A stretch of 7,269 nucleotides of DNA from Chloroflexota bacterium. Lineage in GTDB: Bacteria; Chloroflexota; Dehalococcoidia; SM23-28-2; RBG-16-64-32. Location: contig JACPQO010000103.1 of NCBI GenBank assembly GCA_016190405.1, forward strand, positions 1 to 7,269. Direction: 5' to 3'. The notes beneath the pieces were generated by a model, which had not been told where the DNA came from, did not search any database, and worked only from the letters and a program-made list of their open reading frames with translations. The translations under genes were made by a program, and so were the position numbers. This document shows positions 2,771-7,269 of the stretch, in pieces (position 1 is the stretch's first letter; each line of letters begins with the position of its first letter).

Positions 2771-4003
2771 ATGGAACAAGCTCTTGAAGGAATACGGGTC
2801 CTGGACCTGACGATCTGGCAGCAGGGGCCGATGACGACGGCGATGCTGGCCGACTGGGGCGCCGACGTGATCAAGATCGAGGGGCCGGACGCGCCGGACC
2901 CGGGACGGTCGCTGGTCCGCTATGAGGCGACGCCGGGCGGCCCCAACGCCTACTTCGAGACGCACAACCGCAACAAGCGGGGCATCGTCCTGGACCTGAA
3001 GAACGAGCGCGGGCGCGAGCTGTTCTACCGGCTGGCCGAGAGGGCCGACGTGGTAGTGCAGAACTTCCGGCCGGGGGTCAACGACCGGCTGGGCATCGAC
3101 TACGCGACGTTGTCGGCGCTGAACCCGCGGCTGGTATACTGCTCGGCGTCGGGGTACGGGGTTAAAGGGCCGGACGCGGCGCTGCCGGCGCTGGACCCGC
3201 TGGCCCAGGCCAGGGGCGGGCTGATGAGCGTGACGGGCGAACCGGAGACGCCGCCCACCCGCACTTTCTCGGGCTTCGCCGACCAGGTGAGCGCTTTTCT
3301 CCTCGCTTACGGCATCGTGCTGGCGCTGTTCCACCGGGAGCGCAGCGGCCAGGGGCAGATGGTGGACGGCTCGCTGCTCCAGGCGACGCTAGCGTCGCAG
3401 GCGTTCAACATCGGCAGCTACCTGATGTCGGGCACCTACGGCGGCTCCCCCATACCGCGGGTGTCGCGCCGGCTGACCAGCCCCCTGTGGAACCACTACA
3501 AGGCGAAAGACGGCAAGTGGCTGATGCTGGCCATGGCCCAGCTTGGCCGCTACTGGCCGGTGTTCCGCCGAGCGATGCGGGAAGCCACGGGCGAGACGTT
3601 GGAGCCTGAGGAGGTGAGCATCGACTGGATCCGCTTCCACGCCGCCGAGCTGATGCAGCTCGTAGCCAAACTGGACGAGCTGTTCGCCAGGCGGACGGCG
3701 CAGGAATGGGTAGAGCTGTTCCGGCAGCACGACATGCTGATCGAGATAGTGCGGGAGTACGGCGATCTGGCCTCCGACCCGCAGGTGATGGAGAACGGCA
3801 TGCTGGCGACGCTGGACCACCCGACGCACGGGCGGTTGGAGATGGTGGCGCCGGCGGTGAACCTCAGCGCCACGCCGGGAGGGATCGAGCGGCCGGCGCC
3901 GGAGTTCGGGCAGCACACGGAGGAGGTGCTGCTGGAGGCGGGGTTCAACTGGGAGGAGATCGAGGGTCTGCGGGTGGAGGGCGCAATAGGGCCGCGGGCC
4001 TAG
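2771..4003 (+). CDS. CaiB/BaiF family (class III) CoA-transferase
   Basis: A 410-aa class III CoA-transferase, which moves CoA between carboxylic acids through aspartyl-CoA anhydride/thioester intermediates. N-terminal signature LEGIRVLDLT and LADWGADVIKIEGP (26-39), then NRNKRGIVLDLKNERGRELFYRLAERADVVVQNFRPG (66-102), which is strongly typical. The catalytic aspartate is probably Asp142 in ALDPLAQARGGLMSVTGEP, by analogy with the D-x3-QA motif of formyl-CoA transferase (Asp169 there). C-terminal GQHTEEVLLEAGF is also typical. The family includes formyl-CoA, carnitine, succinyl-CoA:benzylsuccinate and mesaconyl transferases; the substrate here cannot be told. GGAGGG stands only 3 nt before the ATG, an unusually short distance, but the family N-terminus requires this start. 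Its TAG overlaps the stop of the convergent sigma factor. Confidence 0.96.
   Translation: MEQALEGIRVLDLTIWQQGPMTTAMLADWGADVIKIEGPDAPDPGRSLVRYEATPGGPNAYFETHNRNKRGIVLDLKNERGRELFYRLAERADVVVQNFRPGVNDRLGIDYATLSALNPRLVYCSASGYGVKGPDAALPALDPLAQARGGLMSVTGEPETPPTRTFSGFADQVSAFLLAYGIVLALFHRERSGQGQMVDGSLLQATLASQAFNIGSYLMSGTYGGSPIPRVSRRLTSPLWNHYKAKDGKWLMLAMAQLGRYWPVFRRAMREATGETLEPEEVSIDWIRFHAAELMQLVAKLDELFARRTAQEWVELFRQHDMLIEIVREYGDLASDPQVMENGMLATLDHPTHGRLEMVAPAVNLSATPGGIERPAPEFGQHTEEVLLEAGFNWEEIEGLRVEGAIGPRA
4000..4003. other. CTAG palindrome shared by two convergent stop codons
   Basis: The CoA-transferase stop TAG (4001-4003, plus) and the sigma factor stop TAG (4002-4000, minus) share one CTAG. There is therefore no intergenic space for a terminator, and the two transcripts must run into each other's coding region or end there by another mechanism. 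Confidence 0.95.
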
Positions 4004-4572
4004 CCGACGGCGCCGGGGCGGGCGCCCAGCATCTGGCGCAGCTTGCGCAGGGTGCGGAACAGGATAACCCTGACGTTGGCCTCGTTGAGGCCCATGATGT
4101 CGGCGATCTGACGGTTGCCGAGCCCGGCGTCAAACTTGAGGGCCACGATGTCCTGCTCGCGCTGGGGGAACCGCCGAAGGCATTCGACGACGGCTGCCAC
4201 TTCCTCGCGGACCAGGATCTCGCCCTCCACGGAGGCGCTGCTGGGCGATATGGCGTAGAGCACATCGGGGTCGACGACGGTCTCGCGGCTGTTCTTGCGT
4301 CCGTGGCTGGTCACGATGTTGCGGGCGATGGTGAACAGCCAGGTGGCGAAGGCGTCGTCGTTGCGGAGGGACGCAGCTTTGACGAAGACGCGCTCGAAGA
4401 CGTCGGCCACCAGGTCTTCGGCCAACTGGACGTTGCGGACGCGGCCGTAGACGTAGGCGAAGACGCGCGGGAAAAACTGCTGGTACTTCTGGGCGAAGTC
4501 GTCCAGGCGACGGGCGGCGGTAGCGGCGCCGTCGGGCTTGGGGAGGCTGAAGAGTCTGGCGAGAGAGGGCAT
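4000..4572 (-). CDS. RNA polymerase sigma-70 factor, ECF subfamily
   Basis: A 190-aa ECF sigma factor directing RNA polymerase to a specific promoter set. Region 2 spans about 30-93: RVRNVQLAEDLVADVFERVF is the region 2.1/2.2 core-binding part and WLFTIARNIVTSHGRK is region 2.3/2.4. Region 4 spans about 130-182: LRRFPQREQDIVALKFDAGLGNRQIADIMGLNEANVRVILFRTLRKLRQML, with a clear helix-turn-helix that would contact the -35 element. There is no C-terminal extension. ECF factors are usually followed by an anti-sigma gene; here the next gene in that direction is convergent, so no cognate anti-sigma factor is encoded adjacent to it. The start ATG 4572 has only a weak GAGAAG in front. Upstream is an AT-rich region with a good minus-strand promoter match, shared with the divergent winged-helix regulator. 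Confidence 0.96.
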   Translation of the reverse strand: MPSLARLFSLPKPDGAATAARRLDDFAQKYQQFFPRVFAYVYGRVRNVQLAEDLVADVFERVFVKAASLRNDDAFATWLFTIARNIVTSHGRKNSRETVVDPDVLYAISPSSASVEGEILVREEVAAVVECLRRFPQREQDIVALKFDAGLGNRQIADIMGLNEANVRVILFRTLRKLRQMLGARPGAVG

Positions 4573-4628
4573 CTTCTCGGGGTGCGATTTTCTTGGGAAG
4601 AATCCTGCGGGGACTGGTCAGTGGCTAC

Positions 4629-4657
4629 TAGACAACGACCTGGATTACGTGCATAAT
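4629..4657 (+). promoter_or_regulatory. Predicted sigma70-type promoter for the winged-helix regulator
   Basis: TAGACA at 4629-4634 and CATAAT at 4652-4657 are separated by exactly 17 nt; each hexamer matches the consensus at 5 of 6 positions. Transcription would begin near 4664 and run toward the regulator gene at 4878, giving a leader of about 214 nt. Not confirmed experimentally. Confidence 0.5.
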
Positions 4658-4683
4658 GTCACATGAATTCCATATCGGTATAA

Positions 4684-4736
4684 GCTAAAGTAGTTTTCGG
4701 ATTCGAAAATCGTCATCTCGATGCCGATACTTTAGC
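4684..4736. repeat. 9-bp perfect inverted repeat, candidate operator
   Basis: GCTAAAGTA (4684-4692) and TACTTTAGC (4728-4736) are exact inverted copies, 44 bp centre to centre, close to four helical turns. Such spacing would suit two bound regulator molecules on one DNA face. A second nested pair, TATCGG (4673-4678) and CCGATA (4724-4729), also exists, so alternative RNA foldings are possible. The repeat lies within the AT-rich region between the two facing promoters. Confidence 0.6.
4694..4709. repeat. Small hairpin TTTTCG / CGAAAA
   Basis: TTTTCG (4694-4699) and CGAAAA (4704-4709) form a perfect 6-bp stem with a 4-nt loop GATT, nested inside the larger inverted repeat. It may be an operator half-site pair or an RNA hairpin in either leader. 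Confidence 0.6.
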
Positions 4737-4746
4737 CTTCTAATGT

Positions 4747-4768
4747 AGAATCGAAATTCTGCAATTGC
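4747..4768. repeat. AGAAT/ATTCT hairpin followed by palindrome GCAATTGC
   Basis: AGAAT (4747-4751) and ATTCT (4756-4760) flank a 4-nt loop, and the perfect 8-bp palindrome GCAATTGC follows at 4761-4768. The palindrome would lie just downstream of the predicted minus-strand transcription start (about 4770), a position where a repressor could act. Confidence 0.5.
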
Positions 4769-4776
4769 TAAGGTTC

Positions 4777-4806
4777 AATATACGGGGGGGTCTGCGAAGC
4801 TGTCAA
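4777..4806 (-). promoter_or_regulatory. Predicted sigma70-type promoter for the ECF sigma gene
   Basis: On the minus strand a perfect TTGACA (plus 4801-4806) and TATATT (plus 4777-4782, 5 of 6) are spaced 18 nt. Transcription would begin near 4770 and run left to the sigma factor gene, with a leader of about 198 nt. It faces the plus-strand promoter at 4629-4657, so the two leaders would be antisense over about 4664-4770. Confidence 0.55.
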
Positions 4807-4877
4807 CCCTTTGCAAGACAATAAACAGGGGAAATACCCACCCCGGTAAGCGGGCCGGAAAGGATGGGTGATCGGCG

Positions 4878-5180
4878 ATGCCCAAAAAGTGGAACTTCCT
4901 GAGCAACTACGGACTGGTGCTCACCCACGTGTTCCAGAACCCCCGCGCCACTCTGCGCGAGATCGCCCGCGGCACTGACCTGACGGAGCGGGCCGTGTAC
5001 CAAATAGTGCGCGACCTGGAGGAGAACGGCTTCATCGAGAAGAAGCGCGTGGGCCGCCGCAACATCTACACCATCAACGAGCCGGCCCTGTTCAGCTACC
5101 CCTTGTACGGATCGCTGAACGTGGCCCAGATGATAACGGCGCTGCGCCGTATTCTGGAGGAGCGCCGGGCGCCGGCCTGA
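4878..5180 (+). CDS. Small winged helix-turn-helix transcriptional regulator
   Basis: A 100-aa DNA-binding protein. The start MPKKWNFLSNYGLVLTHVFQNP matches a group of short winged-helix regulators (MarR/ArsR-like fold) that I recall from Chloroflexota and Actinobacteria, with the pattern MPKxWxFLSNHxxVL. The helix-turn-helix is about residues 25-50: TLREIARGTDLTERAVYQIV followed by RDLEENGF. The wing follows (FIEKKRVGRRNIYTIN, 52-67). The remaining C-terminal helix NVAQMITALRRILEER may serve dimerisation. No ligand-binding domain or cysteine switch is visible. The only purine-rich ribosome-site candidate, AAGGA (about 4860-4864), is 13 nt upstream of the ATG, rather far. It is divergent from the ECF sigma gene, and the inverted repeats between them are natural candidate targets, which is inference only. 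Confidence 0.88.
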   Translation: MPKKWNFLSNYGLVLTHVFQNPRATLREIARGTDLTERAVYQIVRDLEENGFIEKKRVGRRNIYTINEPALFSYPLYGSLNVAQMITALRRILEERRAPA

Positions 5181-5341: not shown

Positions 5342-6334
5342 TTAGCCGCCGATCCGAGACGGGGGGATGCCGTAGCGATGGCTGCCCCCCGTCATCATAT
5401 ACTCCACTATCCCGAATCCGGTCTGGTCCCCCAGCTTGAACCGGCAGTGCTGGTCGAAGCCGAAGGCGGCGGCGTCGGCGGCGGCCACGGCCGCAGCGTC
5501 GCTGTCTGACCAGCGGCCGGCCATGGGACCGAGGAAGATGGTGCCGATCTCGTTGGCCGTGAGGGACAGCGTCTCACCAGCGGCCGTCGTAAGGCGGAAG
5601 CGGCCCTCCCGGGGGCGTTTGGTTCCCGGCCAGATATCGAGGTCGTGCTCGATGGCCGTGATGGGCCGCGCTTCGCCCTGCTCGGGTACCAGGGCCCCGT
5701 CGGCGTGGATGACATCGCCGTCGGGGGTCTCCCAGAGCCAGGCGGAGATGCAGAAGTCGTCGAACTGGGCGGAGATCCACATCCAGATGGGGACGTCGGC
5801 CATGGCGCGCACGCCCCAGGAGCGGTCGCGGATGCCCAGGAGGTCGGTGAAGAGCTGGTCGCCGATGGTGAAGGAGCCGCTGTAGAGGCCGGCCTGGGTG
5901 TAGTGCATCTGGTGGGCGACAAGCTTGTCGCCGTTCTGCCAGTGGATGGGGCTGAAGCGGTAGAGGGGGCAGCGGGCGCGGAACTCCAGGGAACCGCTGA
6001 CTCCGTTGGCCTCGTCGGCGATGTCCAGCCGCCAGGCCTTGAGGGGCTCGACGATGGAGTAGGAGAGGGAGCCGGTCTGCATGACCTCACGGTCGTTGTT
6101 CAGGGGGCGGACGTTGAGATAGGAGTAGTGCTGCCCGTTGTGGACGACGAACAGGTAGGCCTGCATCATGTTGCGGTTGGGGAAGGCGCCCAGGCCGGTG
6201 ATGGCGGCGAACTGGCCCTGACGGTCGTGGATGTTGAAGTAGAAGCGGTCCTGCCAGTCGGGGTGGTCGGAGGCGACCTGGGCCAGGGGCTTCTCCGTCT
6301 GGTGGACCAGGTATTCGTCCATTCTGCTGACCAA
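5342..6334 (-). CDS. Lipocalin-like (DUF7064/AttH-like) protein with RDRSWGVR motif
   Basis: A 330-aa protein without signal peptide or membrane helix. The hallmark is RDRSWGVRAMADVPIWMWISAQF (motif at 169-176). It follows a long beta-rich part with repeated aromatic strands: RFYFNIHD, QAYLFVVHNGQHYSYLNVRPL and SLEFRARCPLYRFSPIHW. This looks like the tandem lipocalin-type fold of AttH / CrtC-like proteins, which bind hydrophobic molecules, and like DUF7064/7065 proteins. The real substrate is unknown. An alanine-rich stretch (about 276-290) is odd but short. Start: TTG at 6334 is preceded by GAGGT (6342-6346) at 7 nt and lies 5 nt after the upstream ATPase stop. The ATG at 6322 (MDEYLVHQ) has no good ribosome site but is a possible alternative. 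It probably forms an operon with the ArsA-like gene. Confidence 0.82.
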   Translation of the reverse strand: MVSRMDEYLVHQTEKPLAQVASDHPDWQDRFYFNIHDRQGQFAAITGLGAFPNRNMMQAYLFVVHNGQHYSYLNVRPLNNDREVMQTGSLSYSIVEPLKAWRLDIADEANGVSGSLEFRARCPLYRFSPIHWQNGDKLVAHQMHYTQAGLYSGSFTIGDQLFTDLLGIRDRSWGVRAMADVPIWMWISAQFDDFCISAWLWETPDGDVIHADGALVPEQGEARPITAIEHDLDIWPGTKRPREGRFRLTTAAGETLSLTANEIGTIFLGPMAGRWSDSDAAAVAAADAAAFGFDQHCRFKLGDQTGFGIVEYMMTGGSHRYGIPPSRIGG

Positions 6335-6339
6335 GGGAG

Positions 6340-7269
6340 CTACCTCGCGTTCTCGCCCGCGCTGCTGCGTCCGAAGCTCACGTGGAGGCTCTGCCCATCG
6401 AAGGAGGAGGAGAGGGCGTCCAGGTAGCGGACCTCCTGGGGCAGAGGGATCGTGCGGCGGCGGCCGGCCAGCTGCACGATCAGGTTGTCGCCGACCTGCT
6501 CCAGGCTGAGCTCCTCCCGGCGGGCGAAGGGAAGGGCGAGGCTGAGCAGGTGGCGACCGTCGCGCTGCGAAAAGGCGTGTACAGGCCCCCGATACAGGAC
6601 TGCCGCCGGGGCTTGCTGCCCGTAGAGAGCGGCGGCCAGGCCGGCCAAGGCGTCAGGCGGCGTGGACAGCAGGGGCGAAGCAAGGACGGGCATGGGGGCC
6701 ACAGATGCCTGAATATAGGAAAGGACCTCCTGCTGCTCGGCGCGAGCGGCCTCGAAGAAGGGGTCGCTGACCTCCGGCGGCAGCAGGCGGTTGACGATGG
6801 CGGCGTCTGCGGGGTAGGCGAAGAGGCTGAGGACGGCCAGGGCGCCCTGTACCTCAGCCAGGGCGGACCGATCGGCGGCCAGGACGATTCGTATTGAGGC
6901 GACTTCTGGGTCGGTCAAGAGATCGCGCAGGCGGGCCAGGCGCAGGAGAAGGTCGCGGCCGTGCTCGTAGACGTCGTCGGCGCTGGGGGCGACGCCGGTG
7001 AGGGCGCGCAAGAAGGGCTCGAAGACGGTGGGCTGGCGGACGGGGAAGAGGCGGTCCAGCCAGCGGGCAGCAGCGTCCAGGGCGGACAGCAGGTCCAGGC
7101 AGTGGCCCAGAGGGGGGCCGTCCACGACGATGGCGTCGAAGTCGCCTGCTGCGGCCCAGGCCTCGACCTCCAGCAGGCGGCCGATATCGTTCAAGCCGGG
7201 CAGGGCGGCCATATCGTCGGCCAGGGCGACATCCATGCTGCGCCAGTCCAGGAGCTCGCGCAGCCAGTC
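6340..7269 (-). CDS. ArsA-family ATPase with C-terminal HSP20-like domain, 5' end outside the window
   Basis: The open frame runs through the right window edge (309 codons plus stop visible), so the N-terminus with the P-loop is not seen. Visible parts fit the ArsA/Get3 family: MAALPGL-x-DI-x-LLEVEAW, then DFDAIVVDGPPLGHCLDLLSAL, the equivalent of the DTAPTGHTLRLL motif. A long helical part follows, then a VLAADRSALAEVQGALAVLSLFAYPADAAIVNRLLP segment typical of the family. The C-terminus (GRHLLSLALPFARREELSLEQVGDNLIVQLAGRRRTIPLP) matches the HSP20-like domain often attached to bacterial ArsA-like ATPases. Family roles include anion efflux ATPase and membrane-protein targeting; which applies is unknown. 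The motif is degenerate (DGPPLGHC instead of DTAPTGHT). The lipocalin-like gene starts 5 nt after its stop. Confidence 0.88.
   Translation of the reverse strand, partial: DWLRELLDWRSMDVALADDMAALPGLNDIGRLLEVEAWAAAGDFDAIVVDGPPLGHCLDLLSALDAAARWLDRLFPVRQPTVFEPFLRALTGVAPSADDVYEHGRDLLLRLARLRDLLTDPEVASIRIVLAADRSALAEVQGALAVLSLFAYPADAAIVNRLLPPEVSDPFFEAARAEQQEVLSYIQASVAPMPVLASPLLSTPPDALAGLAAALYGQQAPAAVLYRGPVHAFSQRDGRHLLSLALPFARREELSLEQVGDNLIVQLAGRRRTIPLPQEVRYLDALSSSFDGQSLHVSFGRSSAGENAR

Follow-up and report, generated by a model that had tools for sequence, protein, structure and literature searches.

Do two promoters that point at each other between divergent genes allow a sigma factor and a regulator to oppose one another? 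The question is raised by the window, the whole stretch of 7269 bases analysed here, in which such a pair lies between a gene for an ECF-type sigma factor and a gene for a winged-helix regulator. The answer to which we give an even chance is a local control region between the divergent genes, with operators and with promoters set face to face, in which regulator binding and the collision or occlusion of polymerases would oppose expression of the sigma gene.

The divergent genes and their promoters

The gene to the left of the promoters (4000..4572, minus strand) encodes an ECF-type sigma factor of 190 amino acids. The protein contains the Pfam domains Sigma70_r2 and Sigma70_r4_2 (PF04542 and PF08281) above cut-off and no other Sigma70 region, which is the composition of an ECF sigma factor. 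It scores 90.8 bits against NCBIfam sigma70-ECF (cut-off 42.9), and at 120.7 bits falls short of the curated cut-off of 206.45 for the BldN-family ECF sigma factor, TIGR02952.

The gene to the right (4878..5180, plus strand) encodes a regulator of 100 amino acids. Its matches to HTH_24 (33.5 bits, cut-off 21.9) and TrmB (28.9 bits, cut-off 25.6), together with fold matches, identify it as a winged-helix protein; its score against Pfam MarR, 21.3 bits, is under the cut-off of 24.6. The structure model, of moderate confidence (mean pLDDT 73, pTM 0.59), is nearest to MarR-type regulators and to the centromere-binding protein AspA, and the likeness to AspA is also found by sequence (E 5.6e-4).

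Both promoters sit between the two genes, each aimed at the other. The plus promoter, TAGACA-17-CATAAT at 4629-4657, matches the consensus at 10 of 12 positions and points to the regulator gene. The minus promoter, TTGACA-18-TATATT at 4806-4777, matches at 11 of 12 and points to the sigma gene. The sigma70 scan that found them returned exactly these two matches in the whole window, and shuffled sequences gave a mean of 0.6 (sd 0.7). With starts placed 7 nt past each -10, at 4664 (plus) and 4770 (minus), the predicted leaders are 214 nt for the regulator and 198 nt for the sigma factor, and they overlap over 107 nt on both strands (4664-4770). The two promoter-like sites of the original prediction are confirmed at exactly the coordinates given there, and from the predicted starts both leaders would be about 200 nt long and complementary. 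The predicted overlap stops 92 nt short of the sigma start codon on one side and 108 nt short of the regulator start codon on the other, which would leave both ribosome-binding regions unmasked.

Related loci

The regulator has 322 related proteins, and its identity to 22 aligned relatives, chosen among the matches listed, is 79-93%. A scan of contigs with the regulator gave 18 loci (L001-L018), titled Chloroflexi, Chloroflexota or Dehalococcoidia; the viral contigs scanned contained no relatives of the regulator. Judged by these matches, the window itself probably comes from a Chloroflexi bacterium. A whole-genome search (E <= 1e-25) found the regulator in 18 of 393 genomes of the class and 18 of 25 genomes of the order, and the class search and two order searches returned the identical 18 genomes. 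The window and its 18 relatives make up the 19 loci compared here, divided into group A (15 loci) and group B (L015-L018).

By tblastn, 17 of the 18 relatives have a sigma gene next to the regulator in divergent orientation, and in 16 of them the alignment covers most of its length. With the window included it is visible in 18 of 19 loci, counting a remnant in L011, and lies beyond the contig end in L015, where the contig starts before the sigma gene and a sigma ortholog is present on another contig of the same genome. In L011 the sigma gene is judged from its sequence to be a remnant, because residues 107-182 alone align by tblastn and the contig has no sigma match at E <= 1e-20. A sigma ortholog of more than 50% identity occurs in 17 of the 18 regulator-bearing genomes and in none of the seven order members without a detected regulator, these being genomes of uncertain completeness.

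A second winged-helix paralog, 51-52% identical to the window regulator, lies between the promoters and the ortholog at L011:4674-4931 and L015:283-555. L011 carries a sigma remnant (4037-4394) while retaining the facing promoters, the conserved block O1 described below and two winged-helix genes.

The limits of some intergenic regions were set in other ways. In L010 and L012 the sigma start codon was not found and the tblastn edge was used as the boundary, the left edge of L015 was set by hand, and the second winged-helix gene served as the right edge in L011 and L015. The right edge of L016-L018 was set by hand at 4800-4820, and the regulator begins at 5001. The leader lengths of these loci are not all lengths of gene leaders; the overlap lengths are unaffected.

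Conservation of the promoters and their spacing

An anchor-free scan of the 19 intergenic regions finds a facing pair in every one, in each case next to the ortholog of the regulator gene; the loci share ancestry and do not count as 19 separate events. When these regions are shuffled with dinucleotides preserved (200 times per locus), 0.14 of 19 loci would be expected to show such a pair. In the minus promoter, TTGACA is exact in all 19 loci, every -10 begins with TA and has T as its sixth base, and the spacer is 17-18. In the plus promoter, CATAAT is exact in all 19, the -35 is TAGACA (7 loci), TGGACA (7), TAGACT (4) or TGGACT (1), and the spacer is 16-18. The intergenic 5.5 kb of the 19 loci comprises 45 promoter-like sites, against 25 in the remaining 153 kb of the same sequences, where no two facing sites separated by 60-160 bp turn up under the same rule. 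Most of that remaining sequence is coding, with a higher G+C content, which makes the shuffles the fairer comparison.

The mean top-base frequency over the 24 hexamer columns is 0.92, and the same layout slid along the alignment reaches at most 0.875, so that none of 99 slides attains the observed value. This test used nine loci of less than 85% identity out of the 15 of group A, with L015-L018 omitted for poor alignment. In the same set the sequence outside the elements is not conserved, with column means of 0.52 for 4573-4628 and 0.51 for 4825-4877.

The gap from CATAAT to TGTCAA is 140-146 bp in 12 loci, 131-132 bp in three and 120-121 bp in four. These classes differ by about one helical turn, with mean steps of about 10.9 bp; the steps are two in number and may be a chance result. 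Resultants for helical phase are 0.64-0.75 at periods of 10-11 bp, values that come from related loci with no null alongside. The predicted leader overlap ranges from 85 to 110 nt across loci and falls by clade into 105-110, 95-96 and 85-86 nt.

The original prediction tied the arrangement to conservation of both promoters and their spacing among related genomes. All 18 relatives retain the two promoters and the order in which they face, in strong support of the observation, and the loss of hexamers in close relatives that would have spoken against the arrangement did not occur in any of them. The spacing is preserved within clades and differs from one clade to another. The face-to-face pair can be traced through a Chloroflexi order known from metagenome bins, and the fact that no copy compared has lost either promoter suggests that selection acts on the arrangement as such.

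Conserved DNA blocks

Two operator-like blocks adjoin the predicted starts. O1 is a 48-bp conserved block at 4658..4705, whose left edge lies just past the plus -10 and whose right edge falls near +42 of the plus transcript. It has 25 of 48 columns invariant in nine non-redundant group-A loci and no clear dyad, and its group-A form is absent from group B. O2 is a 24-bp dyad, AATGTAGAATCGAAATTCTGCAAT, at 4742..4765. Counted from the predicted minus start it occupies roughly +6 to +29, which is a usual place for a repressor or roadblock. Its dyad agreement in 16 loci is 0.70 on its own axis and at most 0.44 on axes slid by 1-8, a test biased to the own axis because the anchor is itself dyad-like and L010, L012 and L013 had been excluded in advance. 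In these three loci, which have both promoters, no O2 was seen.

Patterns derived from O1 matched in 13 and 14 of 25 genomes, once in each and at this locus only. The group-B form of O2, with up to three mismatches in the 25 genomes, matched at this locus in six and at one other place (G146); this pattern misfits most group-A copies, and its control pattern gave one match per strand in G228. Near confinement of the patterns to this locus is as expected for local control. The conservation is mainly at the level of DNA, comprising the four hexamers, O1, O2 (in 16 loci) and an element upstream of the minus -35. Conserved blocks adjoining both starts, which the original prediction does not bring up, suggest that protein binding would be at least part of the mechanism.

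O1 and O2 were also compared as copies of one site, which is unconvincing. A match overlapping O2 is among the top five of the O1 matrix in seven of eight loci, the strands differ, and the matches at O2 score 3-8 bits, against 15-20 for O1 itself (8 of 15 loci). A generic palindrome scan of the 19 loci was mostly no better than shuffles; scores reached by 7% of shuffles or fewer were found only in L001, L010, L014 and L015-L018, and in L010 at another site. Autoregulation by the ECF sigma factor was set aside as well. The minus strand of O1 contains AAACTAC-N13-GATA, which we take to resemble an ECF promoter; the pattern matched nine places in 14 genomes, all at this locus, and its control pattern four, so that no regulon in these genomes shares the strict form of the motif.

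In group B, an inverted repeat whose arms differ together between L016 and L017 was noticed by eye after the plus -10 (L016:4632-4653 and the matching stretch of L017).

The conserved blocks also fit a reading in which the overlap has no function. Both promoters would be real, each with its own operator, the long leaders would result from fitting these parts together, and interference would be negligible at natural promoter strengths. DNA conservation beside the plus start and at the minus promoter would then explain the layout without collision, and the difference in overlap length between clades agrees with this. Against it stands the facing order of all 19 loci, given that the same 300 bp appear to leave room for promoters placed back to back, free of interference. 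A functionless overlap is unlikely, though its chance is appreciable, and the control region with collision is retained as the preferred reading.

The element upstream of the minus -35, [GT]AC[AG]ATAA at 4817..4824, is conserved as much as the promoters, with six of eight columns invariant in the nine non-redundant group-A loci. It may serve as a UP-like site or bind an activator, or else act as a weak plus -10. As a -10 it would support a different reading, in which the main promoter of one of the two genes lies elsewhere and the corresponding facing promoter makes an antisense or minor RNA. The regulator would then start from the element at about 4817, or the sigma gene from the back of the plus -10, used bidirectionally. 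The hexamer [GT]AC[AG]AT, found in 16 of 19 loci, shares A2 and T6 with a -10; in the window it stands 55 nt ahead of the regulator start. It has no conserved -35 upstream, as 4783-4800 has a mean top-base frequency of 0.53 and zero invariant columns, and it is missing in L015-L017, where the facing promoters are present.

For the sigma gene, the comparison is with Salmonella, in which bidirectional -10 elements are frequent according to the account in PMC10268837. The likeness to the promoters described there is that two opposite-strand starts lie in one short region. The divergent starts of those promoters are 7-25 bp apart, and the starts predicted here face each other across 107 nt, which places the pair outside the definition of a bidirectional promoter. 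No -35 partner that could serve a back-side -10 turned up in the window. A further start from the reverse side of the plus -10 may exist; that one facing promoter is not the main one for its gene is distinctly improbable.

Possible RNA structure of the leaders

Control could also act on RNA, if the leaders pair over about 107 nt or form a conserved hairpin, with cleavage of the duplex or altered folding of the leader. Complementarity is automatic if both predicted starts are right, and the window leaders fold better than most shuffles (plus strand, z -1.75, 9 of 200 as good; minus strand, z -2.47, 2 of 200). RNAalifold on 15 loci predicts zero pairs for the plus strand, both for 4664-4800 and for the whole leader to the start codon. 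For the minus strand of the same number of loci it predicts three pairs only, none with changes on both sides.

One hairpin was followed individually. It joins GCTAAAGTA and TACTTTAGC, at 4684-4692 and 4728-4736, and is formed by a 9-nt inverted repeat that reaches from O1 to just before O2. On alignment A2 the helix has 66% of cells paired and five of nine pairs double-changed, its covariation is reached by 4 of 500 shuffles, and its covariation score is above all slid versions. On alignment A4 it has 63% of cells paired and four double-changed pairs, and it is unremarkable against shuffles (57 of 500 for covariation, 147 of 500 for paired cells), still above the slid versions. The covariation is weak and alignment-dependent, and relatedness alone can give such values. 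A conserved RNA structure was rejected on the near absence of RNAalifold pairs and the loss of most of the hairpin signal on alignment A4. The inverted repeat may equally well be a DNA site, and the predicted overlap lies outside both ribosome-binding regions. RNA-level control has a slim chance of being the mechanism.

The excludon is a described system with features of this kind. According to PMC7154746, opposing transcripts repress each other through interference and processing of RNA duplexes. The transcript of the example given there covers a neighbouring operon, whereas only non-coding leaders would overlap here. The plus RNA, from its predicted start at 4664, begins 92 nt outside the sigma coding region and heads away from it, and the minus RNA, from its predicted start at 4770, begins outside the regulator gene; neither has the layout of an excludon.

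The original prediction offered promoter collision or RNA pairing as the basis of mutual exclusion. Collision or occlusion fits the layout. Pairing is less supported, on account of the few RNAalifold pairs, the fading covariation and the position of the ribosome-binding regions.

A proposed model of the control region

In the preferred control region, two promoters of the housekeeping-sigma type would stand face to face, and each polymerase would run through the opposite promoter. The winged-helix protein would bind O2, a short distance past the sigma start, and possibly O1 next to the start of its own transcript, which would block transcription of the sigma gene and tune that of its own. Polymerases from the stronger promoter may displace or occlude those at the weaker, giving a sharper choice between sigma factor and regulator. 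Pairing of the leader RNAs would be at most secondary. Control at the DNA level is favoured because the overlap misses the ribosome-binding regions, O2 is at a place typical of repressors, and the regulator is MarR-like. Mutual exclusion and bistability may follow from this arrangement, and a built-in genetic switch is plausible from the sequence.

Several observations temper the model. Polymerase footprints of -50 to +20, the extent used in PMC3134472, would stay clear of each other in the window and leave room for polymerase at both promoters at once, which counts against the model. Also against it are the lack of a visible O2 in L010, L012 and L013 and the absence of the group-A form of O1 from group B. 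O1 and O2 resemble each other weakly, and binding of both by one protein is hypothetical. L011 keeps both promoters with a sigma remnant, and the region there would serve at most the regulator side. A narrower form, in which the ECF sigma factor is held by a cis toggle, with a head-on repressor promoter, local operators and gaps in helical-turn steps that keep the same DNA face, is rather doubtful.

By architecture the locus appears to be a member of the face-to-face promoter kind, with regulatory features that are predicted. The nearest match in design is scbA-scbR of Streptomyces coelicolor, which, as outlined in PMC3134472, has facing promoters with transcripts that overlap by 53 bp, a gene for a DNA-binding repressor, and operators next to each promoter. 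The 19 loci likewise have facing promoters, and the window would match the system further in transcripts predicted to overlap at their starts, a gene for a probable DNA-binding regulator and candidate operators beside both promoters. The overlap predicted here is 107 bp, and the partner is an ECF sigma factor, whereas ScbA serves the synthesis of a signal. Bistability of scbA-scbR comes from modelling in that account; here operators and switching are inferred from sequence. The convergent promoters of temperate phages (phage 186, lambda PR-PRE), mentioned in PMC3134472, show the interference by polymerase traffic proposed here; they are phage promoters, and the present gene pair is in Chloroflexi contigs. 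Among the matches listed for literature on facing promoters, interference, excludons, divergent promoters and Dehalococcoidia ECF or winged-helix proteins, no title names this locus.

If the interference is real, the region would be a compact means of governing an ECF sigma factor; its three naturally occurring spacings provide a ready series on promoter distance versus collision.

Other features of the window

A Pfam scan of nine window proteins found no anti-sigma domain, and an Rfam scan of the window gave zero matches at gathering scores. The stretch to the right of the divergent pair (5342-7269) comprises genes for an Rv3169-family protein and an ArsA-like ATPase, which have matches in 9 and 14 of the 18 loci, respectively, some loci being cut short. 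Positions 35-100 contain short G-rich direct repeats of the type GGGTCA/GGGTCAAGG, seen by eye. The sequence GGGGTGCG at 4579-4586, a little ahead of the sigma start codon, is seen again in 10 of the 15 group-A loci on inspection of the alignments by eye.
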